Part shown: positions 3,455 through 45,837 of the stretch, piece by piece
How the letters are laid out: each line of letters opens with the position of its first letter
Numbering within the stretch: the stretch's first letter is position 1
IMG/VR virus record: IMGVR_UViG_3300002835_013237
Span: 1-54,824 of that record
From: a virus
Length of the DNA stretch: 54,824 nucleotides
Strand: one strand, 5' to 3'
Translations under genes and position numbers: made by a program
The notes under the pieces: generated by a model
The model's input: the letters and a program-made list of their open reading frames with translations, nothing else
What the model was told of the DNA's origin: nothing
Database searches by the model: none

Positions 3455-4705
3455 ATGAATAATAAAATTTTTGTACAGATCGCTAGTTATAGGGATCCAC
3501 AGTTGATTCCTACTATCGAAGATATGCTTTCAAAAGCATCACATCCAGAAAATTTAGTATTTGGTATTTGTTGGCAACATGATGAAACAGAAGATATTAC
3601 TAAGTATGATAATGATTCTCGTTTTAGAATTAGTAAACATCATTATTCAGAAAGTCAAGGTTTAGGTTGGGCTAGACATATCACAAACACATTATATAAG
3701 GGTGAGAAATATACTTTACAAATCGATTCTCATCATCGTTTTGTTCAAGGATGGGATGATATTTGTTTAGAAGATTATAAACAAGCTAAAAAACTATCTA
3801 AAAAACCAGTTATCACTACTTATTGTACTCCATTTGATCCAACTAAAGATAAATCAACTTGGAATCCAGTTCCATGCTTAATGTCACAATATGAATTTAG
3901 TAGTGATAAGCTATTGATGAGTATGCCTTGGTATATTCAAGATTATAAAGAAAGAAATCATGTTATTAAAGCTAGAACAATAAGTGGCCACTTCTATTTC
4001 ACATCAGGTAAATTTATTAAAGAAGTACCTTATGATCCAGATATCTATTTTGGTGGTTATACTGAAGAAACTACTTTAAGTGTTAGAGCATTTACTAATG
4101 GATATGATTTTTTTAGTCCATATAGAATGGTAATGTGGCATGAATATACAAGAAATTATAGACCTAAACATTGGGATGACCATGGTAAAGAAAGCCAAAC
4201 TAAAAAAACAAGTGGTGAAAGAGATATATTCGCTAGAAATAAAACACGTCAATTATTTGGTACTGAAGAGCATGGAATTGATTTAGGTGAATATGATTTA
4301 GGTGATGTTAGGAGTTTACATGACTATGAAGTGTATGGTGGGTTTGATTTTAAAAAATGTAGAATACAAGATTATACTTTAAAAGTAAAAGAACCACCTA
4401 ATCCAACACCATGGGAAGAACAATTTATAAGTAGTCAATTCAAAATTACATGCGCTTGGGATCTTGATTTCTTTAAAAAATATGAATTTAAAAAACCTAA
4501 ATTTTTAACTTTAGGTATTCAAACAAAATCTGGTTTAGAATTAGCTAGAAAAGATTTTCTTATTGAAAGTGATCCACAGTATGTTAATTTAGAAAATAAT
4601 CAATATTCACTTACTATTAATTCTTTTGATAAACCAAGTAAAATAGTTATGTTTTTATTTGATGAAGAAAAACAATGGAGTGATCGTTACGAAAAAGATT
4701 TATGA
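3455..4705 (+). CDS. GlcNAc-transferase-like glycosyltransferase (PF11397 type)
   Basis: 416 residues. The N-terminus IFVQIASYRDPQL, then FGICWQ, GLGWARH and YTLQIDSHHRFVQGWD (about residues 85-102) match the Skp1/GlcNAc-transferase-like family, in which the DSH/DxH motif acts as the metal-binding DxD. Two His/Trp-rich motifs follow (SGHFYFTSG, GGYTEETTLSVRA). The last 130 residues form an extra beta-rich domain that may bind glycan. First gene of a short glycan operon (3.4-7.7 kb), 3' end overlapping the next glycosyltransferase by 4 bases. The acceptor could be a virion protein, DNA or a host glycan. Confidence 0.78.
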   Translation: MNNKIFVQIASYRDPQLIPTIEDMLSKASHPENLVFGICWQHDETEDITKYDNDSRFRISKHHYSESQGLGWARHITNTLYKGEKYTLQIDSHHRFVQGWDDICLEDYKQAKKLSKKPVITTYCTPFDPTKDKSTWNPVPCLMSQYEFSSDKLLMSMPWYIQDYKERNHVIKARTISGHFYFTSGKFIKEVPYDPDIYFGGYTEETTLSVRAFTNGYDFFSPYRMVMWHEYTRNYRPKHWDDHGKESQTKKTSGERDIFARNKTRQLFGTEEHGIDLGEYDLGDVRSLHDYEVYGGFDFKKCRIQDYTLKVKEPPNPTPWEEQFISSQFKITCAWDLDFFKKYEFKKPKFLTLGIQTKSGLELARKDFLIESDPQYVNLENNQYSLTINSFDKPSKIVMFLFDEEKQWSDRYEKDL

Positions 4706-6563: not shown

Positions 6564-7661
6564 ATGGTTGATTATTTAATAGTTGGAGCTGGTTTTTATG
6601 GTTCAATTTGTGCATATGAGTTAAATAAACAAGGTTATAAAGTTTGTGTTATTGATTCTAGAGAGCATATTGGTGGAAATTGTTATACTGAAAAAAAAGA
6701 TGATATTAATATTCATATCTATGGTCCTCATATATTCCATACATCAAATGAAGAAGTATGGCAGTGGATAAATCAATTTGTTTCATTTAATAACTTTAGA
6801 TATTCTCCACTAGCTGTTTATAAAGGTGAATCTTATTCTTTACCTTTCAGCATGTGGACATTTAATAAATTATGGGGAGTAACTCACCCACATCAAGCCA
6901 AACTTATAATTGATCAACAAAGTAAACATATAGGTGAACCTAAAAATTTAGAAGAACAAGCTATTAAATTGGTAGGTACAGATGTATATGAGAAATTAAT
7001 TAAAGGCTATACAGCTAAACAATGGAAAAAAGATCCAAAATTACTTCCATCTAGTATTATTAAACGTCTACCAGTTAGATTTACTTATGACAATAACTAC
7101 TTTAATGACAAATATCAAGGTATTCCAATTGGTGGATACACTCAGATATTTGAAAAATTATTAAAAGGAATAGATGTTAGATTAAAAGTAGATTATTTTA
7201 CAGATAAAAAATACATTCCAGAATATAAAAAACTAATTTATACAGGACCAATAGATAAATTCTATAACTATCAGTTTGGAGAGTTAGAATATAAAACAAC
7301 AGAATTTAAACATCAGAAGAAAAAAACTGATAATTGGCAAGGTATAGCTGTTATGAATTATACTGATGATAATGTTCCTCACACTAGAATAATTGAACAT
7401 AAACATTTTGAAGGAACTGAATCTTCAATCACTTGGATCACTAATGAATACCCAACTGAATATAAAGCTAACAAAACAGAACCAATGTATCCAGTTAATG
7501 ATGATGAAAACAATACTAAATATTTTCAATACAAAACATTAGCTGATAAAGAAGAAAATATCATATTTGGCGGAAGATTAGCTGAATATAAATACTATGA
7601 CATGCATCAAGTTATAGCCAGTGCTCTTAATAAAGTAAAGAGTTTGCCTGCGCTAAAATAA
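6564..7661 (+). CDS. glf: UDP-galactopyranose mutase
   Basis: 365 residues, typical length. FAD-binding Rossmann motif VGAGFYGS at residues 7-14, then the family hallmark HIGGNCYTE and IYGPHIFHTSNEEVW, further LPFSMWTFNKLWG, and a C-terminal GGRLAEYKYYDMHQVI region binding FAD. The enzyme interconverts UDP-galactopyranose and UDP-galactofuranose, so the phage can drive incorporation of Galf residues into a surface or virion glycan. Last gene of the first glycan block. I am confident of the family. Confidence 0.93.
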   Translation: MVDYLIVGAGFYGSICAYELNKQGYKVCVIDSREHIGGNCYTEKKDDINIHIYGPHIFHTSNEEVWQWINQFVSFNNFRYSPLAVYKGESYSLPFSMWTFNKLWGVTHPHQAKLIIDQQSKHIGEPKNLEEQAIKLVGTDVYEKLIKGYTAKQWKKDPKLLPSSIIKRLPVRFTYDNNYFNDKYQGIPIGGYTQIFEKLLKGIDVRLKVDYFTDKKYIPEYKKLIYTGPIDKFYNYQFGELEYKTTEFKHQKKKTDNWQGIAVMNYTDDNVPHTRIIEHKHFEGTESSITWITNEYPTEYKANKTEPMYPVNDDENNTKYFQYKTLADKEENIIFGGRLAEYKYYDMHQVIASALNKVKSLPALK

Positions 7662-7678: not shown

Positions 7679-10267
7679 ATGTATCAATCCATTCATTACG
7701 ATTTTAGAAGTAAAACATGTCACTTAAGAGATGACCAACAAGGTTGGTTATCATTTGAGTACACTCCTACTTATTATAAGTTAGATCCTAAAGGTCAATA
7801 TGAAACACTAGATGGTAAACAAGTATCTAAAACTTATACTTGTGATAAAAATGATCCATTAACATACTATGAAATAGACATTCCTATGGAAACTAGGGTG
7901 TTAGTGGATGCTTATAAAGATTTAGATGATGCTCCTAAATACCACAATACAGTATTTTTAGATATTGAGTGTGAAATTGGAGGTGCATTAACTACTGATT
8001 ATATCAAATCAGCTCCAATGAAAATAACATCAGTATCTCTTTATGATGTTAATTTAAAAAAATTCTACTGTCTAATTTTAGACGAAAAGAAACAATTGAA
8101 GCATGTTGAGGAAGAAAACAAAGAAATCATCCCTTGTGATGACGAGGCGAGTTTATTATCAAAATTTATTGATACTTGGTTGGTTAGTGATCCCACTATT
8201 ATTAGTGGTTGGAATAGTGAGTTTTTTGACATACCTTATTTATATCATAGGATATGTAAGGTATTGGGTGAAGAAAAAGCTAAAACATTATCTCCGTTAG
8301 GTATTGTTACTGTTAAAGATTTCTTTAATAAACGAGAACAAACAACTGAATCTACAATTAATATAGCAGGTGTTAACCATCTTGACTATATGTTGCTTCA
8401 TAAGAAATTTATTATGAAACAAGAGTCATCTTATAAACTAGGTGACATAGGAGAGAAATATGTTAAGTTAGGTAAGGTTGATTATGAAGGATCACTTGAT
8501 AAATTATTTAGAGAAGATGTTAATAAGTTTATAGAGTATAACTTACGTGACGTTGAAATTCTAATTGAATTAGATAAAAAATTACAGTTTATAGATTTAA
8601 CAGTTAATATATGCCATTTATGTCACACACCATATGAAAACATATATTACTCAACTGCTTTAAATGAAGGTGCTATTTTAACTTATCTGAAACGAAAAGA
8701 CATAGTTTCACCTAATAAACCAACTACTTACAATTCAGCATTAAAAGAAGCTAATGAAGAATACGCTGGTGGTTATCTTAAAGATCCAGTACCAGGATTA
8801 TATGAATGGGTATCTGACTTAGACTTTACTTCACTATATCCATCTATTATTCGTAATTTAAATATGGGTATAGAAACATTAGTTGGTAGGATACAAAATA
8901 GAGATAAATACGATAATCAATGGGGATTAGGCGATTTAAAGGACTTAGAACCAGATACTGATATTACTATTGAAAAAGTAACACCTGATAGAAAAGTGAA
9001 GGTAAGTAGTATTAAAGCTAAAGACTTAATTGAACTAATTGAAAAAAATAAATTGATTATATCCGCTAACGGAACATTGTTTAGACGAGATAAATCAAGT
9101 ATTGTAGTGGAAATATTAAATGACTGGTTTAATAAAAGAAAACAATATAAAGACCTGATGAAAAAAGCATTTAAGTCAGGTGATAAATCAATGGGTGAAC
9201 ATTATAATAGGCTACAACATACATTTAAAATTAAATTAAACGACGTTTATGGTGTATTTGCACAAAACGGGTGGCGTTACTCTGATGGTAATTTGTTTAT
9301 TAGTAAAGCCATTACACTCACTGGCCAACGCTTAGACCAAGAAAGTATTAACTTTGTAAATAAAGAAGTTACTAAAGAATTAGGTGTTGAACGTGATTAT
9401 GTTATTACAGCTGACACTGATAGTTTATTTTTTGAATTAAAAGACTTAATTAAGAAACGTAAACCAGATGTTGACATTAATAATAGAGAGGATGTAGTAC
9501 CTGTAGCACTTGAAATAACTAAAGAGTATCAAGATAAAACACAACCGTTCCTACAAAATCTATGTAAATCACTATTTAATGTTGATAATGAATACTTTGA
9601 GTTAAAACAAGAGGTTGTACTAGAACGAGGATATTTTGCTGGTAAAAGAAGATACGCTCAATTTATTGTTAATAAAGAAGGTGTACCAACTGAAGAATTA
9701 GATATTAAAGGTATGGATGTGATGAAGTCAAATATGACTCCATTGTATCGTAAATTTGGAGAACAAATATTACTTGATATCATGTATGGTAAAACCAAGA
9801 GAGATATTGATAAAAAAATTATTGACTTTAAAGATACACTAGCCGCTTTACCTTATAAGAGTATTGCTAAACCTACTGGAGTTAGGAATATTAATAAGTA
9901 TATCGCTTCAAAACCAGCATCAGGACAAATATTTTCTAAATTAGAATTAAAATGTCCTATTAATACTAAAGCAGCTATTTGGTATAATGACTTGTTGCGT
10001 TTTAAAAAATTAGATAAAAAATATCCATGTTTTGTTGAGGGCGATAAGATGTATTATGTTCAATTAAAGGATAATCCATATAAAATTGAAGTGTTAGGAT
10101 TTACAGGAAACGATCCAGAATTTATAAATGAGTTTATAGAGAAATTTGTTGATAGAGAAGAAGGATTCAATTCAGTACTATTAAATAAATTACAAGGTAT
10201 ATACAGTGATTTGAAATGGTCATTTCCAACTTTAAATCAATATGCTAATAAGTTTTTTTCATTCTAA
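7679..10267 (+). CDS. family B DNA polymerase (T4 gp43-like)
   Basis: 862 residues, close to T4/RB69 gp43 (about 900). The proofreading exonuclease shows Exo I FLDIECE (D95, E97), Exo II SGWNSEFFDIPY and Exo III YNLRDVEIL. The polymerase domain has motif A DLDFTSLYPSII (about 379-390), motif B KIKLNDVYGVF and motif C TADTDS (about 577-582), with both catalytic Asp regions intact, so it should be active. The next gene but one is a clamp-like protein, and clamp-loader genes lie at 28-29 kb, giving a T4-type replisome. A host-type promoter sits immediately upstream. Confidence 0.96.
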   Translation: MYQSIHYDFRSKTCHLRDDQQGWLSFEYTPTYYKLDPKGQYETLDGKQVSKTYTCDKNDPLTYYEIDIPMETRVLVDAYKDLDDAPKYHNTVFLDIECEIGGALTTDYIKSAPMKITSVSLYDVNLKKFYCLILDEKKQLKHVEEENKEIIPCDDEASLLSKFIDTWLVSDPTIISGWNSEFFDIPYLYHRICKVLGEEKAKTLSPLGIVTVKDFFNKREQTTESTINIAGVNHLDYMLLHKKFIMKQESSYKLGDIGEKYVKLGKVDYEGSLDKLFREDVNKFIEYNLRDVEILIELDKKLQFIDLTVNICHLCHTPYENIYYSTALNEGAILTYLKRKDIVSPNKPTTYNSALKEANEEYAGGYLKDPVPGLYEWVSDLDFTSLYPSIIRNLNMGIETLVGRIQNRDKYDNQWGLGDLKDLEPDTDITIEKVTPDRKVKVSSIKAKDLIELIEKNKLIISANGTLFRRDKSSIVVEILNDWFNKRKQYKDLMKKAFKSGDKSMGEHYNRLQHTFKIKLNDVYGVFAQNGWRYSDGNLFISKAITLTGQRLDQESINFVNKEVTKELGVERDYVITADTDSLFFELKDLIKKRKPDVDINNREDVVPVALEITKEYQDKTQPFLQNLCKSLFNVDNEYFELKQEVVLERGYFAGKRRYAQFIVNKEGVPTEELDIKGMDVMKSNMTPLYRKFGEQILLDIMYGKTKRDIDKKIIDFKDTLAALPYKSIAKPTGVRNINKYIASKPASGQIFSKLELKCPINTKAAIWYNDLLRFKKLDKKYPCFVEGDKMYYVQLKDNPYKIEVLGFTGNDPEFINEFIEKFVDREEGFNSVLLNKLQGIYSDLKWSFPTLNQYANKFFSF

Positions 10268-12145: not shown

Positions 12146-12436
12146 ATGAATAAATTAACACCAGTTAATGGTCATGTTATTATTAAACCTATTGAGTTTG
12201 AAGAACAAACCTACGGTAATATTGTTATTCCTGATTTAGGTAAAGAAAAACCTGAAATTGGAGAAGTAATATCAGTGAGTGACACTTACAATTGGCATAC
12301 AGGAGATTATGTTAAGTCTAAATTAATACCTGGCCAAAAAGTACTTATTCCTAAAATGGGATCAGTCAAAATCACTGTAGATGGAGAAGATTATATTGTA
12401 ACTAAAGAAACAGAAATTCTATCAATTTATGAGTAA
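12146..12436 (+). CDS. groS: co-chaperonin GroES (Cpn10)
   Basis: 96 residues, the usual size. Recognisable features are the N-terminal LTPVNGHVIIKPIE, the mobile loop region EEQTYGNIVIPD with its hydrophobic IVI tripeptide that docks on GroEL, then EKPEIGEVISV and a C-terminal VDGEDYIVTKETEILSIYE. It caps the GroEL folding chamber. The gene overlaps groEL by 8 bases, so the two are made together. T4 itself encodes only a GroES substitute (gp31); here both partners are phage-encoded. Confidence 0.95.
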   Translation: MNKLTPVNGHVIIKPIEFEEQTYGNIVIPDLGKEKPEIGEVISVSDTYNWHTGDYVKSKLIPGQKVLIPKMGSVKITVDGEDYIVTKETEILSIYE

Positions 12437-14066
12437 AATTATAGTTTATAACACAGACGCTAGACAAAAACTAGCTGACGGCGTAGATAAGTTATCTAAA
12501 GCTGTTGTCACAACATTAGGTCCATTTGGTCGTAATGTTATTATTGAAAAAGAAAATGAATTACCTCAATCAACTAAAGATGGAGTCACAGTCGCAAAAT
12601 CAATCAAACTTAAAGATCCAATTGAAAATATTGGGGCTGAAATTGTTAAACAAGCTGCAATACGTTCAGCCAACACAGCTGGAGATGGTACTACCACTAC
12701 TACTCTTTTGGCTAACACTATGGTTAAAGAAGGTTTGAGCAAAGTTAGAGCTGGAGCCAATGCTGTTGAAATTAAAAAAGGTATTGATGCCGCTGTTAAA
12801 CAAGTAGTTAGCGCCTTAAAGAAAAACAGTAGAGACATTTCATCAGAAGAACAATTAAAACAAGTAGCTACTATTTCATCTAATAATGATGAATTTACAG
12901 GTAATTTAGTAGCTACAGCTCTTGAAAAAGTAGGTCGTGATGGAGTAGTTGCTATTGAAGAAAGTAAAACAGGTGAAACAACACTTGAAGTAGTTGAAGG
13001 CATTCAGTTTGATAGAGGTTTTAAATCACCTTACTTTGTAACTAATAATAGTACAATGCAGGCAGTATTAGAAGACCCTTATGTTTTAATTTATGATGGT
13101 AGAATTATAGCAGCTGCTGAATTATTAAATGTATTACAAAAAGTAAATAGTGAAAATAAATCATTATTGATTGTAGCTGAAGATATTGATGGTGAAGCAT
13201 TAGCAACTCTTATTGTAAATAAGATGAGAGGTATTGTTAAAGTAGTAGCTGTTAAAGCACCTGATTTTGGTGAACGTAGAACATTATTATTAGAAGATTT
13301 AGCTATTGTAACTGGTGGTCAAGTTATTAGTAAAGAAAAAGGATTAAAACTTGATAAACTTAATGTAGCTCAATTATCAGCTTACTTAGGTAAAGCTAGA
13401 ACAGTGACAGTTGAAAAAGAGAAAACAACTGTTGTTGATGGTAAAGGTAGTGAAGAAGCAATTACTGCTCGTGCTGAAGAAATTAAACAACAAATTGATA
13501 AAGCTCAATCAATGTTTGAGAAAGAAAAACTTCAAGAACGTTTAGGTAAGTTAATTGGTGGTGTAGCTATTATTAATGTAGGTGGTAATAATGAAATTGA
13601 GTTAAAAGAGTATAAAGATAGAGTTGAAGACGCTTTATTTGCCACTCGCGCCGCTGTTGAAGAAGGAGTATTACCAGGTGGAGGCGCAGCGTTATTATAT
13701 GCTAGAGAAGCTATTACTACATCTAAAGAAGATAGTGATGATTTTAATACAGGTAAGAAAATTGTTTATTCAGCATTATCATCACCGTTTATTCAAATAT
13801 TAGAAAACGCTGGTTTATCTAACCCAACTTATTATTTATATGAATTAGGTAAATTAGATGGTACTTGGTTTGGATATGATTTAAAATCAGAGACATTTGT
13901 TAATATGGAGGATGAAGGTATTTTAGATCCAACTAAAGTAACTCGTTTAGCAGTTGAAAATGCTGCTGCTGTAGCTGGCACTATATTAACAACTGAGTCT
14001 GTTATTCATGAAGAACCAACTGAGAAGAAAAAAGAAGATAATTTTAGTTCTGAATTAGGTTATTAA
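12429..14066 (+). CDS. groL: chaperonin GroEL (Cpn60)
   Basis: 545 residues, full length. ATP-binding motifs are intact: VTTLGPFGRNVI (28-39), KDGVTVAK and AGDGTTTTT (86-94), the apical domain follows, and EEGVLPGGGAALLYA lies near residue 415. The C-terminus ends EKKKEDNFSSELGY and lacks the Gly-Gly-Met tail of most bacterial GroELs, which may alter cavity behaviour. The start overlaps groES by 8 bases. It likely assists folding of phage structural proteins. Possible horizontal origin from a host, but its A+T-rich codon use blends with its neighbours. Confidence 0.97.
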   Translation: MSKIIVYNTDARQKLADGVDKLSKAVVTTLGPFGRNVIIEKENELPQSTKDGVTVAKSIKLKDPIENIGAEIVKQAAIRSANTAGDGTTTTTLLANTMVKEGLSKVRAGANAVEIKKGIDAAVKQVVSALKKNSRDISSEEQLKQVATISSNNDEFTGNLVATALEKVGRDGVVAIEESKTGETTLEVVEGIQFDRGFKSPYFVTNNSTMQAVLEDPYVLIYDGRIIAAAELLNVLQKVNSENKSLLIVAEDIDGEALATLIVNKMRGIVKVVAVKAPDFGERRTLLLEDLAIVTGGQVISKEKGLKLDKLNVAQLSAYLGKARTVTVEKEKTTVVDGKGSEEAITARAEEIKQQIDKAQSMFEKEKLQERLGKLIGGVAIINVGGNNEIELKEYKDRVEDALFATRAAVEEGVLPGGGAALLYAREAITTSKEDSDDFNTGKKIVYSALSSPFIQILENAGLSNPTYYLYELGKLDGTWFGYDLKSETFVNMEDEGILDPTKVTRLAVENAAAVAGTILTTESVIHEEPTEKKKEDNFSSELGY

Positions 14067-15597: not shown

Positions 15598-16000
15598 GGG
15601 GGAGCCAGGTATTGCTCCGTAATGTGAAGATACCACTACATGCAGGCGGTTGGATGTGTCGCCTTTAAACAAACTTTCAACAAATAAATGACAACGAATT
15701 GTCAACTATGACCTTCGATGACTTAATGTCATTCGTAGGCGCCGATTACGCTCTTGCAGCCTAATCCGCAAGGGGCAGCTGATAGCCTTGCAACAGAACA
15801 GCACTTTAGTTTTCCTAGTTTCATAAAATTAGGTGGTGGATGGCACGTTAACCAAAACTAACGGCCCCAAGTATGGCGTATTGGCCAAGTCGAACCATTA
15901 CCACCGTCAGCAAGAGCGGTGTGAAAAATCTTGATAAGCATGTGATACGCTGGTGTTATTGTTCCTTACGGATACACCGGTTCGATTCCGGTCTCCTCCA
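15598..16000 (+). ncRNA. ssrA: transfer-messenger RNA (tmRNA, ssrA) with long tag
   Basis: The ends form a tRNA-like domain: GGGGGAG (15598-15604) pairs with CTCCTCC (15993-15999) with one G-U, and ACCGG-TTCGATT-CCGGT is a T-arm. Between them lie a GGCG/CGCC helix (15645-15663) like pseudoknot 1, a messenger part and further GC-rich helices. The tag frame ends ...GADYALAA-stop (TAA at 15762-15764), the conserved degradation ending. The frame is open back to 15669, giving roughly 25-31 residues, far more than the usual 8-15; it begins around NDNELSTMTFDDLMSF. tmRNA with SmpB frees stalled ribosomes and tags the unfinished protein for proteolysis. No smpB is in the window, so host SmpB is presumably used. 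Confidence 0.92.
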
Positions 16001-16014
16001 CAATTTTTTAAAAG

Positions 16015-16075: not shown

Positions 16076-16708
16076 ATGTATCGTATTCAACTTGATCCAG
16101 GGCCTTGGGCTCAATATGTAAAAAGAGCTGATAATGTTAATTTACCACTTAATGAAGTGAGTAAAAAATATATGATGGAATCTAATCTATATGCCACTCA
16201 ATTATTTGAGGCTTTACAACAACAGCAAAGTATGCAAAGTGCAGTAGCTGCTGCTGGTGCTGGACTTGGAACACCAGCTGTTACTACTCCGGCACCAACC
16301 TCTACTCCAACTCCAACTCCAACAGCTACTCCAACTCCAACCCCAACTCCATTACCTGGTACATCAAGTATAGCTATTAATTTATGTGCTCCATCATCAT
16401 CTTATAGTGGTATGGTTGTTTACGCTTATGTTTCAAGTAGTCAAGCATTTTATACTAATACAGGAGTAACAGCTAGCTTCTATTGGAGCGGAAGTGGCAA
16501 TGAATTATTATCAGGATCAATTTATATAAATAGTGGATCAAGTTGTGGTAGTGGATCATTTAATGGAATAACTCCAGGTCAAACAGTTGTTTCATTCACT
16601 CACTCTGGATCTATAAATCCTCCATCTTATTTCACATTATCATCTGGTACATATGTTTACTCAACTGGATCAGCTATAACTTCTGGTGGTTGTATAATAT
16701 GTCCTTAA
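16076..16708 (+). CDS. modular protein: helical head, Thr-Pro linker, beta-rich tail
   Basis: 210 residues. Residues 1-65 look soluble and helical (KYMMESNLYATQLFEALQQQQ) with an Ala/Gly stretch. About 66-97 is a Thr/Pro/Ala repeat linker. About 98-210 is a Ser/Gly/Tyr-rich beta domain with four cysteines (LCAPSSS, SSCGS, GGCIICP) that may form disulfides. There is no signal peptide. The layout suits a virion surface or adhesin-like part in which the head attaches and the tail is displayed, but no family is recognised. Flanked by its own box and terminator, it is a single-gene transcription unit. Confidence 0.7.
   Translation: MYRIQLDPGPWAQYVKRADNVNLPLNEVSKKYMMESNLYATQLFEALQQQQSMQSAVAAAGAGLGTPAVTTPAPTSTPTPTPTATPTPTPTPLPGTSSIAINLCAPSSSYSGMVVYAYVSSSQAFYTNTGVTASFYWSGSGNELLSGSIYINSGSSCGSGSFNGITPGQTVVSFTHSGSINPPSYFTLSSGTYVYSTGSAITSGGCIICP
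16300..16352 (+). repeat. ACTCCA tandem repeat encoding Thr-Pro linker
   Basis: About eight imperfect copies of the hexamer (A/C)CTCCA in frame with Thr-Pro codons inside the gene at 16076. A short relative, ACTCCAACTCCAACACCA, ends the UDP-sugar dehydrogenase gene near 36180. Confidence 0.65.
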
Positions 16709-16787: not shown

Positions 16788-17264
16788 ATGAGACTGTTTT
16801 TAACTATTATATTGATATCATTATATACAGTACTAGCTGCGCAACCAACTACAGTATATGTTGGTAGTGTGACTAATAAAGTTAAAATGGGTCCTTTAAC
16901 AGGTAATAAAAATTTAGCATTTGGTGTTAAAAATGTAGCTGAAGAAGTTATATTAGATAAAGGACATGATTTAACTAATGACAGTACAGCATTTAGATTA
17001 GATCTTGAGATTATATATTTTGACATTCAACAAACAGCTACAGGTGTAAGTGTATTTCATAAAACAGAAAATGAAACAATAATTAGAATAAAAGGTATTC
17101 TTTATACAAATGATAAAAAGCCTAAAGAATACATTGCAACAGGTAAGAGTTCTGAAATATCTACCTCAACTATGATAATTGATGAAGGTGGTGGTTTTAA
17201 TCAAGCGTCAGCTCGTTCTGCACTTAAAAAAACCATTATTAACCTAATCGATAAACTACTATGA
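16788..17264 (+). CDS. secreted CsgG/curli-assembly-related protein, short form
   Basis: 158 residues. A clear Sec signal peptide (MRLFLTIILISLYTVLA, cut near AA-QP) is followed by a compact alpha/beta domain: TVYVGSVTNK, then FRLDLEIIYFDIQQTATGVSVFH, then STSTMIIDEGG and a C-terminal amphipathic helix SARSALKKTIINLIDKLL. The order resembles CsgG- or YajG-like outer-membrane assembly proteins, but this is a weak, by-eye match. It overlaps the T9SS cargo gene by 4 bases (ATGA), so the two are probably made together, possibly as partner and cargo. Confidence 0.5.
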   Translation: MRLFLTIILISLYTVLAAQPTTVYVGSVTNKVKMGPLTGNKNLAFGVKNVAEEVILDKGHDLTNDSTAFRLDLEIIYFDIQQTATGVSVFHKTENETIIRIKGILYTNDKKPKEYIATGKSSEISTSTMIIDEGGGFNQASARSALKKTIINLIDKLL

Positions 17265-19153
17265 AAAAACTATTATTAGCCCTTTCGCTTTTAATTAGTT
17301 ATGTAACTACATTCGCCCAAACCCCTCAAATTGGTCACTTCCAGACTCTTGCTACTGTAAGAAGGGGAGATACATTAGATGTAGCTTGGTACTACAGACC
17401 AGGTTCACCTGATATTCGTACATTCCAGGTTGACTGGCAGTACAAGAAAACATTATTAACTTATATCTCAACTACAGTTGACGCTGCTGTTAATGGAATG
17501 ACTCCATCAGTAAGTTATAAAACTTGGGATAACTACAAGTATAATACCTACTCAAATGGTACTTATACTTACACTTCAAATACAGATTGGACTGTAGGAC
17601 GTAACTATTTAGTATTGTCAAGTGGATCTACTATTGGATCTAATGGTTATATTATCCATAACAAGTATAAGATTAACGCTGTAGCTCCAAACTACGTATC
17701 AGATACAATTACTGTGAACTGGGCTCGTATGTTTGATGTTAATGGTGCTACAATTGGTGATAATGTAGCTCAACTTACAAACCAAAGATTAGCTATTAAA
17801 TTATTAGGTAATTTAACATTATCAGGTAAAGTATGGTTAGGTCCTCAAATGACATTAAAGCCTGTTATTTGGTGTTATCAAGCAAACAATAACGCATTTA
17901 TCGATTCAGTAACAGTAAATGCTGATGGTACTTATACTTTAGATAATATTGATGAAAATACAAGGTATAAACTAGATGTTAAGTTTCCATCTCCACTTGC
18001 TACTATTAGAGACAATGCTGTGACAATAGCTGATGCTGTTAAGACATATGATGAATATACTAATACAGATGTTAACCAGACATTTCCAAGAACATATTTA
18101 AGAAATGGATTAGCATACTTGATTGCTGATGTTAATAAAACAGGTACTTTAGATGGTGGTGATGCTTATTCAATCTATGCCTCAGTATCAGGATTAAAAC
18201 CAATTGATACAACTAAATTAATAAATGCGTTTGCTAAAAATACTTATGATTCATTAGCATTAGGTGTAAACCAATGGAATGACTGGTCATCTCATATTAA
18301 CGGTGTAACTTACATTTATGATAGTGTTGGATTAGTTAACTTAACAGGTGTGGATATTAAATACTTCATTTTAGGTGATGCTGACAGAACACATTCATCT
18401 CCAGTATATAACGCAAATGGTGATTTAGTAGCAGCTGCTAGATATATTGGAACACTTGATGTTAATATTCCAAATGTAACTGCTCCAACTGGTCAAGCAA
18501 TGTATGCTAATTTTAATATCAACACAAATGGTATTAAAAATGATGGCTTACAATTTGAAATGAGATATGATCCAACTAAAGTTAAATTTGAGGAAATCAT
18601 ATCAAACATTCAAGGACCTTGGTTACAATATATGACTCACGATGATGCTAATGGTATTATTCGCTTTGGAGGAATGAATAACCAAATATTAGGATCATTA
18701 ACTGGTAATGCTACTCCATTTAAATTAAAATTCTCTCCAATTGGTACTAACGACATTATGACTAACGTATATGTTAGAAGCTTAATGGATGCCGCTGATA
18801 GAAATGGAGATCATTTCAATATTAATTTATTATCTGATTATGTAGTATTAGCTACAAGACAATCATTAATACCAACTCCAGATGGTGAAATTACAGCTAC
18901 AATTAGACCAAACCCAACAAGTGGATTCTTTGAATTAGTAGTAGTATTTCCTAAATCAAATATGACATCATTAGCTACAGTATATGATATTCAAGGTCGT
19001 AAAATTAAAGACATTGGTAGAATATGGAGTGATGATTATGTAACAACTGTTATTAAGCAAGTTGATTTAACATCAGCTGCTAACGGACGTTACTTATTAG
19101 TATTAGACAATGAAAATCAAAAACGTTTAGCAAAACAATTTGTTAAAATTTAA
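17261..19153 (+). CDS. secreted cohesin/dockerin-like protein with T9SS C-terminal sorting domain
   Basis: 630 residues. Order: signal peptide (1-19, MKKLLLALSLLISYVTTFA, then QTPQ); a cohesin-like beta domain (about 22-165); a prealbumin/CNA-B-like domain (about 183-242, LTLSGKVWLG ... DGTYTLDN); a dockerin-like Ca-binding loop IADVNKTGTLDGGDAY (288-303) and a second short copy YFILGDADRTHSS (368-380); a second cohesin-like domain (about 398-525, QFEMRYDPTKVKFEEI); and residues 541-630, which match type A Por sorting domains: RPNPTSGFFEL, VYDIQGRKIKDI, VDLTSAANGRYLLVL, KRLAKQFVKI. That domain directs export across the outer membrane and attachment to surface lipopolysaccharide in Bacteroidota. 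The phage thus appears to make a protein for display on the infected cell or for release. Confidence 0.88.
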   Translation: MKKLLLALSLLISYVTTFAQTPQIGHFQTLATVRRGDTLDVAWYYRPGSPDIRTFQVDWQYKKTLLTYISTTVDAAVNGMTPSVSYKTWDNYKYNTYSNGTYTYTSNTDWTVGRNYLVLSSGSTIGSNGYIIHNKYKINAVAPNYVSDTITVNWARMFDVNGATIGDNVAQLTNQRLAIKLLGNLTLSGKVWLGPQMTLKPVIWCYQANNNAFIDSVTVNADGTYTLDNIDENTRYKLDVKFPSPLATIRDNAVTIADAVKTYDEYTNTDVNQTFPRTYLRNGLAYLIADVNKTGTLDGGDAYSIYASVSGLKPIDTTKLINAFAKNTYDSLALGVNQWNDWSSHINGVTYIYDSVGLVNLTGVDIKYFILGDADRTHSSPVYNANGDLVAAARYIGTLDVNIPNVTAPTGQAMYANFNINTNGIKNDGLQFEMRYDPTKVKFEEIISNIQGPWLQYMTHDDANGIIRFGGMNNQILGSLTGNATPFKLKFSPIGTNDIMTNVYVRSLMDAADRNGDHFNINLLSDYVVLATRQSLIPTPDGEITATIRPNPTSGFFELVVVFPKSNMTSLATVYDIQGRKIKDIGRIWSDDYVTTVIKQVDLTSAANGRYLLVLDNENQKRLAKQFVKI

Positions 19154-19164
19154 AATTAAATAAC

Positions 19165-19494
19165 ATGTCAGAAGAAACAAATGTACAAGACCATAATGAC
19201 GGAACATGGTCAGGTCTTAAGAAAACAATTATTGGAACACTTAGCACAGCTGTATTAGGCGCTGGTACTTGGGTTACCACTACATTTTTTGGTGGCCATA
19301 GTGAGGACAAAGAAGAAGCTAAAACAGAACAAGCTGCTCCAGCTCAACCAACTATTGTTATTAACAACACTCAACAGCAACAACAAGCTGCAGGTGGTAA
19401 TACAACTATAATTAAAGAAAAAATAGTTGAAAAGCCAGCTGCTCCAGCTCCTGCTCCGAAGAAAAAAGAATTTTCAGAAGAACCAAAATGGTAA
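19165..19494 (+). CDS. small membrane protein with Gln/Pro/Ala-rich tail
   Basis: 109 residues. A hydrophobic stretch at about 20-43 (TIIGTLSTAVLGAGTWVTTTFFGG) is followed by an Ala/Pro/Gln-rich low-complexity region (PAQPTIVINNTQQQQQAAGG, PAAPAPAPKKK) and a charged end. There is no Sec-type cleavage site, so it is probably an N-in single-pass anchor. A holin, spanin or envelope spacer role fits the neighbourhood, but nothing specific is recognised. It lies between the T9SS cargo and a holin-like gene. Confidence 0.6.
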   Translation: MSEETNVQDHNDGTWSGLKKTIIGTLSTAVLGAGTWVTTTFFGGHSEDKEEAKTEQAAPAQPTIVINNTQQQQQAAGGNTTIIKEKIVEKPAAPAPAPKKKEFSEEPKW

Positions 19495-19515: not shown

Positions 19516-19779
19516 ATGAAATGGATTAAAGAGTTGTTTGATGACAACAACACAATCAATGAAAAATCAGTTGTAGGATTTATCGCTTTCTTTATGATGG
19601 TAATCGCTTTAGGCGTTGACATCTTTACAGGATTTGCTGGTGAAGAATTTGTTATTAATGAGTTTATCTTTGATGGCTTTATGGTTATTGTTTTAGGTTC
19701 ATTTGGTATTGGATCTATTGACAAGTTTATCAATGCTAAAAAAGGTAATAAATCAGAAGAAACTCCAACCGAAGAGTAA
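19516..19779 (+). CDS. holin-like small two-helix membrane protein
   Basis: 87 residues with two hydrophobic helices (about 19-41, VVGFIAFFMMVIALGVDIFTG, and about 49-69, IFDGFMVIVLGSFGIG), a charged N-terminus and a Lys/Glu-rich tail (KKGNKSEETPTEE). Size and topology fit class II holins, which permeabilise the inner membrane so that lysins escape, and similar small proteins are common in phages. A secreted NlpC/P60 peptidase follows 5 kb downstream. It is followed after 1 base by the CsgG-like gene. The holin role is an inference from topology only. Confidence 0.5.
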   Translation: MKWIKELFDDNNTINEKSVVGFIAFFMMVIALGVDIFTGFAGEEFVINEFIFDGFMVIVLGSFGIGSIDKFINAKKGNKSEETPTEE

Positions 19780-19780
19780 A

Positions 19781-20536
19781 ATGGAAAAAAAATCTAATAT
19801 GATTAAAGCAATTATTGGTATAATAGCATACTTTATACTAATGTTTACACTAGCTAATAAGTGTACTGCTCAAGTTGTAGGTAAAACTGTAACTGAAGAT
19901 TATAAAGCATCATTTGAAAAAAAATCAAATATTGATAGTCTATTAGATTATGATGGCCCTAAAATCCCAATTCAGATACTTAGCTTAGGCATCAGTGAAG
20001 ATGTCTATGCTATGTATCCTGAATTGAAGGATAAAAGAGTAGGTTTAGGTGTAACTAATATTGTAGTTGAATTCTTAGAGGAAACTAACCACTTTACCTT
20101 TACTGAAGACAAAACTGAAATTAAAAATAGAATGGTTAAGCAATTCCAAGCATCACAAGCTGGAATTACTCAAGATAAATTAGATGGTAGAGGTAAAATT
20201 AGATTAGCTCACTACTTTGTCTATATTGAATGCTATGATTTCTCAGTTTCAGAAGATGAGACAGTGAATATGAAAGACGGAGTTAAAAACACAGTTGTAA
20301 CTCGTTTAGGTTTACAAGTTAAATTTGTTAATGCTGAAACTGGAGAATATTTCACTGGTTCAGGTTTAGGTGATGCTAAAACAGTTAGAGAATTAACATT
20401 AATGAATGATGATAACTTTAGTGAGGTTAAATTTAATCAATCAACAATAGGTACCTCAACTAAAAAAGCACTTGAAATAGCAGCGGGTAAAATATTACTC
20501 CGCATGCATAAGAAAGGTATATTTAAAATGCAATAA
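19781..20536 (+). CDS. CsgG-like outer-membrane secretion/assembly protein
   Basis: 251 residues from ATG 19781, chosen because it directly follows the upstream stop; upstream in-frame codons lie inside that gene. The N-terminus (about 7-31, hydrophobic then KCTAQ) is a signal sequence. The body follows CsgG in order: PIQILSLGI, IVVEFLEETNHFTFTEDKTEIKNRM, GRGKIRLAHYFVYIECYDFS, RLGLQVKFVNAETGEYFTGSG and a final helix STKKALEIAAGKILLRM. CsgG forms the nonameric outer-membrane pore that exports curli subunits. CsgG-like genes have been noted in some marine T4-like phages. Here it accompanies other exported proteins, suggesting a pore or anchor for them. The E. coli lipobox Cys is not clearly preserved. 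Confidence 0.75.
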   Translation: MEKKSNMIKAIIGIIAYFILMFTLANKCTAQVVGKTVTEDYKASFEKKSNIDSLLDYDGPKIPIQILSLGISEDVYAMYPELKDKRVGLGVTNIVVEFLEETNHFTFTEDKTEIKNRMVKQFQASQAGITQDKLDGRGKIRLAHYFVYIECYDFSVSEDETVNMKDGVKNTVVTRLGLQVKFVNAETGEYFTGSGLGDAKTVRELTLMNDDNFSEVKFNQSTIGTSTKKALEIAAGKILLRMHKKGIFKMQ

Positions 20537-20655: not shown

Positions 20656-22068
20656 TTGAGAAAATTAAGAATATACTTCACCTTGCTGTTGCTCTTTTTA
20701 GCGACAGAAAACATTAATGGGCAAACTCTTACCCATCAATTTACAGATCCTTGCACTGGTCAAGTAACTTATTTTTCAGTTCCTGCTACAGGTACTGTTA
20801 TTTTCTTTTTAGGCCAATCAAGACAATTTACATCAGCTGATGTTCAAAGTGGAGTATTTGCCTCTTGGGTTAATCAAGTTTATGCTGATTACCGTAAAGT
20901 ATCTCCTTGTGGACAGCAGCAAGGACAAGTAACACAAAATCAAATCACATCTCAAATTATAGGCAACACTGTACAAAGTGTAGTTGGTAGTATTATGAGT
21001 CAAGCTCAATCTGCAGCCTCAAGTACTATCACTGGTGTTGCTACATCAGCATCAACTGCTAATGCTTCATCAGCTGGGTCAAGTGATGCTGCTTCTAAAA
21101 ACAATAAAGATGGGGATAATAAAACTAAAAATAATGAAAACAACAATAATAACCAAGGTTCAACTAGTTCTTCAAACAGTGGAGGAAACAATCAAAATGG
21201 CGGGGGTAATGGCGGTACTAGCGGGGGCAATAATAGTGGCGGTAATGAAGGAGATGCTAAAACTACTACTAGGACTGAACAAAAAGGAGAAGAAGTAGCT
21301 GGTACTACAACAATGAATGTAGATCAACAAAACCAAAATAGCTCTAAAGACGATAATAGCAGTAGCGGAGGTGGGGGAGGAGGTAAAGGTGGAAAAAATG
21401 GAGGTAAAAGTGGAACAACTAATCCCCTAATAGTATCATCTGACTTTACAACAGCTCAAAATCTAGATAAGACATTCACACCTATACTTAATTTAAGTAT
21501 GAATCAATCCTCAATGACAGGAATGTCAAGTTGGGGATTAACATCAATGATATGGTTTAATTTTAAACAATTTGCCTTATCAGGTAAATACACTAAAATT
21601 AACTTTAGTAAAAATGGTAAGTTAAAATGGGTACATAACATTAATTTAACTGGTGTTTATTCATATGGTAATGTAATTGGATTTGTTGGTTATAGTGGAA
21701 TACTAAATGCTGGTAAATGGGGTGTAACTGGATTTAATACTAGTGCTGCTATGACATTAATAACTGGTGAACAGAAAAACACATTTATATCACCATCAAT
21801 AACAGCATTCTATACTAAACCATTTAAAGCAAATAAACGTTTAACTATATCTCCTGAGTTGTATATTATATCAACACCATTAATATATTCTACTGTAGAT
21901 AAAGTGACAACAACAGATAGAACATTTAGTGCGTTTATAGGTAGTGGATTTGACTATCAGTTAACAAGGCGATTTAAATTCAATGTTAATTATAAAGCAA
22001 ATTTGTCTACCAACCCTGATTTTCCTATATTGTCGTTTTTCCTAATAGGAAGTAAGATTAACTTATGA
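20656..22068 (+). CDS. secreted protein with low-complexity linker and outer-membrane beta-barrel-like domain
   Basis: 470 residues starting at TTG 20656; the nearby ATG is in another, closed frame. Signal peptide about 1-22 (MRKLRIYFTLLLLFLATENING, then QTLTH). Residues 23-110 form a small domain beginning FTDPCTGQVTYF and containing WVNQVYADYRKVSPCG. About 115-255 is an Asn/Ser/Gly/Gln low-complexity stretch. About 256-470 shows alternating strands typical of an outer-membrane barrel (WGLTSMIWFNFKQFALSGKY, GVYSYGNVIGFVGYSG) ending in FFLIGSKINL. It could be a porin-like partner for the CsgG-like protein. Overlaps the lectin gene by 4 bases. Confidence 0.6.
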   Translation: MRKLRIYFTLLLLFLATENINGQTLTHQFTDPCTGQVTYFSVPATGTVIFFLGQSRQFTSADVQSGVFASWVNQVYADYRKVSPCGQQQGQVTQNQITSQIIGNTVQSVVGSIMSQAQSAASSTITGVATSASTANASSAGSSDAASKNNKDGDNKTKNNENNNNNQGSTSSSNSGGNNQNGGGNGGTSGGNNSGGNEGDAKTTTRTEQKGEEVAGTTTMNVDQQNQNSSKDDNSSSGGGGGGKGGKNGGKSGTTNPLIVSSDFTTAQNLDKTFTPILNLSMNQSSMTGMSSWGLTSMIWFNFKQFALSGKYTKINFSKNGKLKWVHNINLTGVYSYGNVIGFVGYSGILNAGKWGVTGFNTSAAMTLITGEQKNTFISPSITAFYTKPFKANKRLTISPELYIISTPLIYSTVDKVTTTDRTFSAFIGSGFDYQLTRRFKFNVNYKANLSTNPDFPILSFFLIGSKINL

Positions 22069-23498
22069 GGTTATTACTGGTCATATTATTATTTCCATTT
22101 ATGTTATTTGGGCAGTCAATTACTGCTCCACCAGGTAGGACTTATCAAGTTAACTTAGCTGGTCAAGATGCAAGCGGATTTGTTATTAGTGGATTTGGCT
22201 CACAAACACTATTAACATCAATTGGATTTATAAACCCACCAGCAGGTACAACATTTAGTATAACTACAACTACAGGTTTATCATTTGCTACTGGGTATAA
22301 CTCTTGGACAAACCAAACACGTTTAAGTTTTACAGGTACAATGGCTAATGTTAATAATGCTTTAGCATCATTAAAAGTAAATACAGGTGCTACTTTAGGT
22401 AATGTTCAAATATCAATATCAACAACAGTAAACCCAACAGGGTATTATTATAATGCTATTAATGGTCACTTTTATTTACCTGTAGCTACAACTCAAATAT
22501 ATACAACAGCTAAATCAATGTCTGCTCAACAAACATTTAAGGGGCAGACAGGTTATCTTGTAACAATTACTTCACAATCAGAACAAGATTTTATTATAGC
22601 TAATGTACCTCAAAGTAATATATGGTTTGCATTATCAGATGTTGCTCAAGAAGGATATTGGAGAGTAGATGCTGGTCCTGAAAATGGTACTTTAATTAAA
22701 ACAGCTAATGGACAATTAACAGGTAATATATCAGGTCAATATAACAACTGGTGCGCTGGTGAACCTAATAATGCTGGGGGAGAACACTATGCTGTAACTA
22801 AATGGGGTGGAGGAGGTTGTTGGAATGACTTACCTAATAGTTTTAGTTGCGCCTATGTAATTGAATTTGGTACTTGGACTAACCCAGCTGATGCTACATT
22901 TACTGGATTTTATACTGCTAATACTACTAATGTAGTTGCTATAACTAATTTATTATCAGGTACAGTTACCATACCAGCTGGATTATCATCAAGGCCATTA
23001 CTTACACTCTATAGAGTAGTAAATGGTGTTGATCAACTTGTAGACTATAAAACAGTAGCTACAAACGGTACTTATACTTTTACATTACCAAACCAAAACT
23101 CAACATATAAGTTAGTTCCATCATTAACAATGCAAGGTGTAACATCAGCTGATTTTACTCCTATATGGAATGAATTACAAAATGAAAGTACACCACCTGT
23201 AACAGCTCAAGGCTTAGTAATGACAGGTACTAAACAATGGAAGGCAGCTGATGTTAATGAAAATGGTATACTTGATTTAGGTGACACTTATTTAATAGCA
23301 GCTCACAATTCAGGTTATAGATTGATAAATAAAGTATTATGGTTCACCTCAACTAATTATGATAACATAACTAGAACTAATTTCTCTACAATCAATCCAG
23401 TCACATTCTTTACTATTAATGTAGCTACAAGTGATGTAACTCAAAACATTAAATACTGTATATTAGGAGATGTTAACTTATCTCATTCCTCAAATTAG
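22065..23498 (+). CDS. secreted C-type lectin protein, apparently truncated T9SS-cargo relative
   Basis: 477 residues. Signal peptide 1-16 (MRLLLVILLFPFMLFG, then QSIT); a cadherin-like segment (about 22-122); a C-type lectin domain (about 127-268) with WFALSD, the mannose-type EPN motif (233-235) and CWNDL (252-256) plus paired cysteines; a prealbumin-like domain (about 296-350); and a dockerin-like repeat AADVNENGILDLGDTYLIAA (394-413) with IKYCILGDVNLSHSS near the end. The last three parts run parallel to residues 183-380 of the protein at 17261, but this one stops where that protein continues into a cohesin-like and T9SS sorting domain. It probably binds a surface sugar; export beyond the periplasm is unclear. 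Confidence 0.78.
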   Translation: MRLLLVILLFPFMLFGQSITAPPGRTYQVNLAGQDASGFVISGFGSQTLLTSIGFINPPAGTTFSITTTTGLSFATGYNSWTNQTRLSFTGTMANVNNALASLKVNTGATLGNVQISISTTVNPTGYYYNAINGHFYLPVATTQIYTTAKSMSAQQTFKGQTGYLVTITSQSEQDFIIANVPQSNIWFALSDVAQEGYWRVDAGPENGTLIKTANGQLTGNISGQYNNWCAGEPNNAGGEHYAVTKWGGGGCWNDLPNSFSCAYVIEFGTWTNPADATFTGFYTANTTNVVAITNLLSGTVTIPAGLSSRPLLTLYRVVNGVDQLVDYKTVATNGTYTFTLPNQNSTYKLVPSLTMQGVTSADFTPIWNELQNESTPPVTAQGLVMTGTKQWKAADVNENGILDLGDTYLIAAHNSGYRLINKVLWFTSTNYDNITRTNFSTINPVTFFTINVATSDVTQNIKYCILGDVNLSHSSN

Positions 23499-24577: not shown

Positions 24578-24668
24578 ATTATTAATATTTATTAGTGGCT
24601 TACTATTATTAGCCATGTTATTCTACTTAATAGTAGATATTTATAAAACTTTAGTAGCAAACCAATGA
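24564..24668 (+). CDS. 34-residue hydrophobic peptide overlapping spanin-like gene
   Basis: GTG start 24564, TGA stop 24666-24668 that shares ATGA with the next gene. The product RLSKLLIFISGLLLLAMLFYLIV followed by DIYKTLVANQ is a single membrane helix. Placement with overlaps on both sides suggests it is translated, possibly as a lysis accessory, but the non-ATG start makes it uncertain. Confidence 0.4.
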   Translation: MRLSKLLIFISGLLLLAMLFYLIVDIYKTLVANQ

Positions 24669-25087
24669 AAAAGATATTATTAATATTATTTTTAAGTTTA
24701 TCTGTATTTAGTTATGGACAAACTAAAACACTTGATTCATTTGTTAGAGAGTGGTTAGGTACTCCTTATCGCTTAGGAGGTAGTTCTAAAACAGGAATTG
24801 ATTGTTCTCAATTTACTAAACGTTTATATAAAGAAGTATATAATGAACGATTAGAAAATGTAGCTTGGAGACAATGGAGCCAAACAAAACGAATATCTAA
24901 ATCCAGTTTAGAAATAGGTGATATAGTATTTTTTAATAGTAGTGTATCACCATCAGGATGGCATTGTGGTATTTTTATTGGTAATAATAAATTTGTACAT
25001 GCTTCAAATAGAAGAGAAGGAGTGATTATAAGTAATCTAAGTAGTTATCCTTATAATAGAAATTATAAGGGTGCTGGGAGACTTTAG
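24665..25087 (+). CDS. secreted NlpC/P60-family cysteine peptidase (probable lysin)
   Basis: 140 residues. Signal peptide 1-18 (MKKILLILFLSLSVFSYG, then Q). The catalytic fold has LGTPYRLGGSSKTGIDCSQF with the nucleophile Cys in DCSQF (about C41-42 region), SLEIGDIVFF, and WHCGIFIGNNKFVHAS carrying the catalytic His. NlpC/P60 enzymes cut the D-Glu to diamino-acid bond in peptidoglycan. A phage-encoded secreted one is a likely endolysin reaching the periplasm through Sec. It begins at an ATGA overlap and is followed by a promoter-like box. It could alternatively be a virion or envelope remodelling enzyme. Confidence 0.85.
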   Translation: MKKILLILFLSLSVFSYGQTKTLDSFVREWLGTPYRLGGSSKTGIDCSQFTKRLYKEVYNERLENVAWRQWSQTKRISKSSLEIGDIVFFNSSVSPSGWHCGIFIGNNKFVHASNRREGVIISNLSSYPYNRNYKGAGRL

Positions 25088-32777: not shown

Positions 32778-32783
32778 TAAGTT

Positions 32784-34118: not shown

Positions 34119-34303
34119 TGACAAGTAGAGATTTTGTTATTTGGTTAAAAGGTTTTGCTACAGCGGCTAATTCTTATAACATTACTCCTAAACAATGGGA
34201 TGAAATAAAAGATAAATTAGATGAAGTTGAAGATACACCTCAAATAAAAATAACCCCTACTTGTATTCAAACCCCACCACCAAAAGAAAGTAAAATATTT
34301 TAA
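34118..34303 (+). CDS. small conserved phage protein (MTSRDFVIWLKGF family)
   Basis: 61 residues. The start TSRDFVIWLKGFATAANSYNITPKQWDEIKDKLDEV resembles a small family seen in many tailed phages (DFxxWLxGF ... LTxxQ...IKDHL), function unknown. The rest is a Pro/Thr-rich tail. Its ATG overlaps the upstream stop and the next gene begins 2 bases later. Confidence 0.6.
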   Translation: MTSRDFVIWLKGFATAANSYNITPKQWDEIKDKLDEVEDTPQIKITPTCIQTPPPKESKIF

Positions 34304-34305
34304 TT

Positions 34306-34734: not shown

Positions 34735-34743
34735 AATTAAATT

Positions 34744-36208: not shown

Positions 36209-36212
36209 TATA

Positions 36213-36506: not shown

Positions 36507-36507
36507 T

Positions 36508-39770: not shown

Positions 39771-39776
39771 TTTATT

Positions 39777-40394: not shown

Positions 40395-40407
40395 ATATAT
40401 TTTACTT

Positions 40408-41412: not shown

Positions 41413-41414
41413 AA

Positions 41415-42392: not shown

Positions 42393-42431
42393 TTTATCTA
42401 TAATAGGCTCAAATCAAAATAAATTTATAAT

Positions 42432-44870: not shown

Positions 44871-44876
44871 ATAAAA

Positions 44877-45836: not shown

Positions 45837-45837
45837 T

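Follow-up and report, generated by a model that had tools for sequence, protein, structure and literature searches.

A phage gene for a cohesin scaffold with a type IX secretion sorting domain, and its predicted lectin partner

Cargo proteins with a type A sorting domain cross the outer membrane of Bacteroidota via the type IX secretion system (T9SS) and are then anchored or released. Dockerins are modules bound by cohesins. Phages that encode T9SS cargo have been published before: the portions available of one study (PMC7468147) describe three "Cryophage" genes whose products have T9SS type A sorting domains and propose host-system hijack and superinfection exclusion, and those of another (PMC6949934) report sorting-domain proteins in crAss-like phages, one of them with BACON repeats. 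Here we analyze a gene, P0001, at positions 17261..19153 (plus strand, as are all features below) of a 54,824-base virus record, IMGVR_UViG_3300002835_013237 (hereafter the window), which encodes a cohesin scaffold with a predicted T9SS sorting domain. The original prediction, made from the sequence alone, had read the product as a phage protein built for T9SS export and had known of no phage example; comparisons of sequence and family support the first part, and the available portions of the two studies overturn the second. It had also offered adhesion, protection against co-infecting phages and receptor decoys as possible functions of a displayed or released protein. In the literature we searched, which included few subscription journals and no bioRxiv preprints, we found no phage cohesin-dockerin surface scaffold, no scaffold-lectin pair and no anchor switch. 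We estimate at roughly 60% the probability that this gene encodes a surface scaffold which leaves the cell through the host T9SS, that a co-encoded lectin docks on the scaffold, and that the surface of the infected cell is thereby changed.

The open reading frame (ORF) has exactly the extent and the 630 residues first proposed. Its N terminus reads by eye as a classical, Bacteroidota-type signal peptide (residues 1 to 20, 17261..17320), as predicted; it ends in TFAQ, and Q20 is invariant in 19/19 aligned homologues. Two cohesin-like modules had also been claimed, and both are recovered by structural comparison (VIA) of an AlphaFold model: domain 1 (residues 21 to 183, 17321..17809) matches cohesin 2vo8 over model residues 19 to 183 (Z 13.4, root mean square deviation [rmsd] 2.9, 132 aligned), and domain 2 (residues 393 to 540, 18437..18880) matches the type I cohesin 6kgf_A over residues 397 to 534 (Z 14.8, rmsd 2.2, 134 aligned). 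The model as a whole has a mean predicted local distance difference test score (pLDDT) of 64.6 and a predicted template modeling score (pTM) of 0.39, with the cohesin domains mostly at pLDDT 65 to 90. Pfam gives a divided answer on the cohesins: PF00963 matches 11/19 family members at E<=1 (best E=5.3e-4) and does not match the window's own copy at that threshold. Elsewhere, among the related loci that we label with an L, PF00963 scores over its cut-off in the scaffold of L143 (43.3/24.1 bits) and in protein gp015 of Flavobacterium phage immuto (36.7/24.1 bits), and under it in L131. Between the cohesins lie a CarboxypepD_reg-like beta-sandwich (residues 184 to 250, 17810..18010), which the original prediction had overlooked, and a dockerin-like stretch (residues 251 to 392, 18011..18436) that is common to the lectin protein described below. 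PF13620 finds the beta-sandwich in 12/19 members (best E=2.7e-4) and reaches only E 0.24 and 12.2 bits in the window scaffold, far below its cut-off of 32.3. The dockerin-like stretch holds one complete 12-residue Ca-loop pattern (residues 290 to 301), in which D290, N292, D298 and D301 are invariant in 19/19 homologues, and one half loop (GDxD, residues 372 to 375). Thus, as modeled, the scaffold has two cohesin folds and one dockerin-like module, not the two first claimed. Profile searches of the PDB with the scaffold returned only two chance-level rows, and PHROGs gave nothing better than E 0.07 for the scaffold, the lectin, or the CsgG-like and barrel proteins encoded nearby.

The search of residues 541 to 630 (18881..19150) against sorting-domain models, on which the original prediction had staked its claim of a type A domain, returned matches: PF18962 (Por_Secre_tail) at E=2.2e-6 and 28.3 bits (cut-off 27), and TIGR04183 at 22.5 bits on the protein, just under its cut-off of 23, and at 27.8 bits in a six-frame search of the genome. 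Family-wide, PF18962 is found in 19/19 members (E<=1) and TIGR04183 in 16/19 (E<=0.1). In 25 diverse copies of the domain, all matched by PF18962, two prolines, two glycines and one tyrosine are invariant, and each of 10 related records has one copy. We also hand-picked 50 records with contigs over 31 kb that contain the CsgG-like gene; PF18962 has one match in each of 38, and 35/50 have a match over cut-off. All 38 matches are on the strand of the CsgG-like match and upstream of it, 318 to 2,532 bp away, or 318 to 1,643 bp for the 35 over cut-off. As a prediction from sequence, export of this phage protein through the host T9SS is well supported.

Scanning viral contigs with the scaffold protein gave 37 loci, including truncated ones and near-copies. 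The ratio of nonsynonymous to synonymous substitution rates (dN/dS) for the whole gene is 0.04 to 0.15 in 11 of 12 pairs of scaffold homologues, the twelfth being saturated, and 0 to 0.30 in the same pairs for the sorting domain alone; outside the signal peptide, cohesin-like domain 1 has the lowest dN in several pairs. These values indicate a genuine ORF under purifying selection. In a tblastn search of 50,697 deposited phage records, a collection that may omit records very near the window's own, relatives of the scaffold, lectin and CsgG-like protein turned up only in four immuto records. Scans of bacterial genome contigs with the scaffold profile (an insensitive pattern scan) and the window GroEL confirmed no relative, and a tblastn search of plasmids found none.

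The proposed partner of the scaffold is a C-type lectin protein encoded at 22065..23498, with a lectin gene present in 31/37 loci. It matches PF00059 (25.6 bits, cut-off 22.6) and lectins in the PDB (E=2e-9), and its motifs E233-P234-N235 (EPN) and W253-N254-D255 (WND) are invariant in 15/15 sequences. The tail of the lectin aligns with residues 187 to 380 of the scaffold in BLASTP (30% over 197 positions, E=3e-14) and with residues 187 to 381 in an hhalign profile comparison (98.8%, E=4e-17). Because the lectin protein has a signal peptide, has no sorting domain and ends in the dockerin-like module of the scaffold, we infer that it may be displayed via the scaffold. Its head and tail have had different histories. 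L010 and L011 are 97% identical in DNA across 12.4 kb; compared with L014, which is closely related to L011, the lectin of L010 is only 68% identical in the head and 99% in the tail, whereas against L008 the head is 94 to 95% identical and the tail only 77%. At informative sites, the L010 head sides with L008 by 169:46 and the tail with L011 by 124:3 (Fisher p=1.9e-49, which is descriptive only since the sites are linked), and the first 120 bases of the gene also side with L011. L017 also keeps the tail, on a longer head of which most has been replaced. The lectin head is exchanged as a cassette, with the tail and 5' end constant. A variable head on a constant tail is what would be expected of a docking tail, and it would also fit other kinds of fixed attachment. 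We considered a diversity-generating retroelement acting on the lectin, solely on the ground that it is a C-type lectin, and rejected it, as the variation seen is that of a cassette swap; no reverse transcriptase had a Pfam match among 30 window proteins, and no search aimed at one was made. In L201, a 379-residue protein at 7954 has the position of the lectin and a dockerin-like tail with no lectin match, perhaps another head on that tail.

Taken together, these features suggest a mechanism. The signal peptide would bring the scaffold to the periplasm, and the C-terminal sorting domain would address it to the host T9SS, which would carry it over the outer membrane; judging from how such cargo behaves, the scaffold would then be fixed at the surface or released. 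The scaffold cohesins would hold the co-encoded lectin, and the CsgG-fold and barrel proteins may aid export or assembly. The most likely purpose would be to mask or occupy glycan or T9SS-dependent receptors that may be used by phages of these hosts, leading to superinfection exclusion; the chief alternative would be adhesion or aggregation. We favor receptor masking or superinfection exclusion because T9SS-exported gliding adhesins may act as phage receptors in such hosts, according to the part available of PMC13288928, and because the sugar genes of the phage fit a change of surface.

We used a wider set of loci to compare how the scaffold is anchored. A scan with immuto gp017 found 113 relatives and a scan with a CsgG-like profile at least 502, the two sets overlapping; 80 loci were taken per scan (160), and the 108 of at least 12 kb were analyzed. 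Grouped by their CsgG-like protein at 95% identity, these fall into 50 clusters; L166 and L175 were excluded from the tree and class counts. The gene order scaffold, CsgG-like protein, then the protein in the position of CsgF is found in 48/48 cluster representatives of the three anchor types (I to III) described here, with the gene for a 158-residue protein and the lectin gene before or after this core, depending on the branch. Type I (31 clusters) has one protein of about 630 residues with a sorting domain, and our own profile finds cohesin 2 in 31/31; L073, L086 and L094 were assigned to this type by Pfam, as they escaped our own sorting-domain profile. Type II (7 clusters, immuto included) has two exported proteins, of 363 to 382 and 243 residues, the second carrying cohesin 2 and the sorting domain. 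Type III (10 clusters) has a protein of 581 to 681 residues with cohesin 2 in 10/10, which ends directly after that domain; the lack of a sorting domain was established with the Pfam model for 7/10 representatives, and with our own profile and reading of the C termini for L149, L170 and L193. Directly 3' of the type III scaffold, 9/10 clusters have a lipoprotein of 117 to 130 residues (lipobox by pattern). L193 was placed in type III for want of a sorting domain, and no lipoprotein was found there. An alignment of 8/9 type III lipoproteins (L136 omitted) and two from L132 was used for comparison, and in a profile comparison their C-terminal domain resembles the phage sorting domains (96.2%, E=2.6e-9 for the pair); PF18962 matches only 3/10 of these lipoproteins at E<=1 (best 0.002), and the PNP motif is absent.

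Immuto, the one isolate found with the gene set among many uncultivated phages, infects Flavobacterium sp. LMO8. Its proteins gp014 and gp015 form a split scaffold, and by eye both carry a signal peptide. Since the profiles for cohesin 1, cohesin 2 and the lectin included immuto sequences, immuto was rechecked with profiles lacking them; gp014 then has a dockerin-like module at E=1.3e-6 and a weak cohesin 1 match at E=8e-4, with no Pfam cohesin, and gp015 is over the Pfam cut-offs for both cohesin and sorting domain. In this split, a part lacking a sorting domain accompanies a part that has one. In a tree of 49 CsgG-like proteins rooted by midpoint, the longest split (100/100) has type I on both sides, in 13/20 and 18/29 rows, and for this reason the link to the T9SS looks old. 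Type II forms one group (96/90), and the anchor types need 3 changes on the tree, against a mean of 16.7 when shuffled. It looks as if the scaffold was split into two genes once; the lipoprotein form has its origin in a single part of the tree, perhaps in one event. A lectin gene lies within 6 kb in 33/38 type I and II clusters.

Several observations weigh against the proposal of a T9SS-exported, lectin-bearing scaffold. Export of the scaffold, docking of the lectin on its cohesins and surface display are all predictions, and the T9SS of this phage's host is assumed. The scheme leaves the passage of the lectin across the outer membrane unexplained, as the lectin has no sorting domain. The scaffold contains the same dockerin-like module as the lectin, and it may for that reason pair with its own cohesin or with another scaffold in place of the lectin; it may also be part of the virion. 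The dockerin-like stretch is mostly below pLDDT 50 in the AlphaFold model, and Pfam returns no dockerin match. Our own profile finds cohesin 1 in only 19/31 type I and 7/10 type III scaffolds. The scaffold is without a sorting domain in 10/50 clusters, and among the 50 hand-picked records PF18962 has no match in 12 and a weak one in 3. Two of the weak matches are lipoproteins (L143 and L132) and the third, in L175, resembles a decayed copy. Type III clusters have no lectin within 6 kb (0/10), an absence that counts as one or two events in evolution and not as ten. Where a sorting domain is missing, in 15 records, only the tail part of the lectin profile matches, in 14/15 cases within frames of 582 to 688 residues, the size of a scaffold. 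L132, which is type III in the tree and outside the class counts (its scaffold is cut by the locus end), carries two lipoproteins together with a lectin. On L175 itself, a contig of 94,151 bases, the sorting-domain match falls in an 89-residue frame amid bacterial-looking DNA, where the gene set seems to have decayed, with its CsgG-like gene still open.

The scaffold gene sits within a run of conserved neighbors. Immediately upstream, a 158-residue exported-looking protein (16788..17264) has a relative in 37/37 loci, and 66/100 of its relatives pass a crude signal-peptide rule; a relationship to the CsgG-like protein was considered and is unsupported by profile comparison (4.7%). Downstream follow a 109-residue protein with one hydrophobic segment and a tail rich in Pro, Ala and Gln (19165..19494, 35/37 loci), an 87-residue membrane protein (19516..19779, 14/37 loci), a CsgG-fold exported protein (19781..20536, 33/37 loci) and an exported-looking protein with a low-complexity linker and a probable C-terminal outer-membrane barrel (20656..22068, 32/37 loci). 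The 158-residue gene overlaps the scaffold gene by four bases (ATGA), as the barrel gene does the lectin gene, and these overlaps suggest one operon. A Bacteroidota promoter pattern occurs 4 times, with 4.25 expected by chance. The CsgG-like protein, modeled from 19784 with the first Met left off, has 4uv2_P as its top Foldseek match (E=3e-6) and matches 4q79_A in VIA (Z 10.6, rmsd 4.9, 150 aligned). We speak of a CsgG fold and not of CsgG because the model is weak (pLDDT 57, pTM 0.51), the related folds CT253, FlgT and PelC score Z 8 to 9, Pfam CsgG matches none of 15 family members at E<=5, and the signal peptides end in xxQ with no N-terminal lipobox by eye. A PDB profile search with this protein did not return CsgG, and such searches gave nothing useful for the CsgG-like, barrel or 158-residue proteins. 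Family searches with the barrel protein likewise gave no useful match; we would call it CsgF-like by position only, CsgF being just a label. In L004 (11279 to 12058) and L016 (11107 to 11883), a second, shorter barrel-like exported protein of 258 to 259 residues adjoins the CsgG-like gene.

This neighborhood brings other explanations into view. The CsgG-fold pore, the barrel and the small membrane proteins could form an envelope-breaking lysis module that opens the outer membrane late in infection, with the scaffold and lectin helping or riding along. The 87-residue membrane protein is related to immuto gp192, which adjoins the annotated endolysin gp191 and holin gp190, and in the window a gene downstream at 24665-25087 encodes an NlpC/P60 protein that, by eye, has a signal peptide. 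Peptidoglycan-acting genes occur within 3 kb of the set in two loci: L138 has an Amidase_2 match (91.6/26 bits) and L143 a PG_binding_1 match (50/23 bits) together with a GH19 match under cut-off; moreover, the available part of PMC9004378 proposes a lysis role for phage CsgGF. However, lysis is not known to involve cohesins, a lectin that binds sugars or a sorting domain for the surface, and the cassette swap of the lectin head suits binding, not rupture. We therefore consider a lysis role unlikely, although no other alternative fares as well.

Somewhat less probable still is a curli-like or glycan fiber that glues cells together. The CsgG fold is present, and such "sibling capture" has been proposed for pelagimyophages in the part available of PMC7029224. 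Yet the cargo here has its own predicted T9SS route, the phage of PMC9004378 showed no clumping as far as the available part reports, and we noticed no fiber subunit, with no search aimed at one.

The scaffold and lectin could instead decorate the virion and help the particle bind glycans, as phage particles often bear Ig-like and lectin domains; the matches of the gene at 16076-16708, upstream of the set, to virion families are at chance level (E 0.07 and 0.42). Against this, exported-type N termini are found by a crude rule in 73/74 cohesin 1 proteins, 66/77 lectins and 108/108 CsgG-like proteins. In immuto the set (10.5 to 15.9 kb) lies beyond the replication genes and outside the annotated virion genes, although annotated tail genes continue up to the record's end, which would be about 10 kb from the set in a circular genome. 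Another genome, G001, has its terminase at 50.7 kb, far from the sorting domain at 158.6 kb. On balance, a virion role appears improbable. Finally, a recently acquired host cargo gene without a phage role, which the resemblance of the architecture of cohesin, dockerin-like module and sorting domain to bacterial T9SS cargo might suggest, is rejected as very improbable on account of selection (dN/dS 0.04 to 0.15) and conserved context, and it is further opposed by type I scaffolds on both sides of the longest CsgG-tree split and by the lack of relatives in species genomes (insensitive pattern scan) and plasmids (tblastn).

Other features of these genomes were observed alongside the gene set. DNA/RNA non-specific endonucleases with PF01223 over cut-off and signal peptides by eye are encoded as immuto gp012 (L002, 9753-10331) and in L131 (6917-7534); an endonuclease beside the gene set in these two loci would suit exclusion of incoming DNA. 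In L131, a 78-residue phage tail collar protein (PF07484, 68.7/24 bits) is encoded at 6679-6915, between the CsgG-like and nuclease genes. In the window, GroES/GroEL, eight tRNAs and a tmRNA are encoded upstream of the scaffold gene. GroES and GroEL (12146-14066) have immuto relatives that are 40% and 57% identical, and the phage-encoded tmRNA (15598-16001, tag DNELSTMTFDDLMSFVGADYALAA) lies beside the tRNAs. The window has a family B DNA polymerase (7679-10267), and immuto is annotated with family A polymerases. A glycan cluster at 31347-48801, with glycosyltransferases, NeuB, GDP-mannose dehydratase and a DegT-type aminotransferase, is partly common to immuto 48.0 to 60.0 kb; a UDP-galactopyranose mutase is encoded at 6564-7661 and a GlcNAc transferase at 3455-4705.

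More tentatively, and at slightly less than even odds, we propose that a widespread group of large Bacteroidota phages owns an old, modular display machine made of a T9SS-exported cohesin scaffold, a dockerin-tailed lectin with a swappable head and a CsgG-fold pore, and that in one branch the T9SS anchor of the scaffold gave way to a separate lipoprotein, one of whose domains is related to the sorting domain. If this is true, these phages remodel the surface of infected Bacteroidota by a two-part, swappable display that rides on the host T9SS, and many unannotated phage genes beside CsgG-like proteins would acquire a shared function. Because immuto and its host are on record, export, docking and the effect on a second infection are directly testable.

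The interest of the locus comes from the gene set, the dockerin-tailed lectin and the alternative anchors, beyond the single gene that the original prediction considered. Among the nearest known systems, immuto gp013-gp018 (NC_055915) has the same set of lectin, cohesin protein, cohesin protein with sorting domain and CsgG-like protein; there the scaffold lies in two genes, and the annotation names only lectin, hypothetical and cohesin proteins. As in cellulosomes of Clostridium and Ruminococcus, a cohesin scaffold is accompanied by a partner that ends in a dockerin-like module, whereas the present scaffold is phage-borne and T9SS-addressed, its partner is a lectin, there is one full loop only, and the pairing is predicted. 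The remaining comparisons draw on the available parts of the respective papers. The operons for CsgF and CsgG of pelagimyophages and of phage Melnitz (PMC7029224, PMC9004378) likewise encode phage CsgG-fold proteins outside the structural block, but their hosts are SAR11 and OM43, T9SS cargo, cohesin and lectin are absent from those parts, and Pfam CsgG does not match the CsgG-like family described here. The BACON-carrying crAss-like phages (PMC6949934) share phage sorting-domain proteins, encoded upstream of head genes, and differ in the BACON repeats and in having no cohesin and lectin pair in the portions available. "Cryophage" likewise encodes proteins with type A sorting domains as proposed users of the host system; its cargo comes from three variable genes (endoglucanase, GH39 and PA14), whereas here each record has one conserved cohesin scaffold beside a CsgG-like gene, mostly with a dockerin-tailed lectin.

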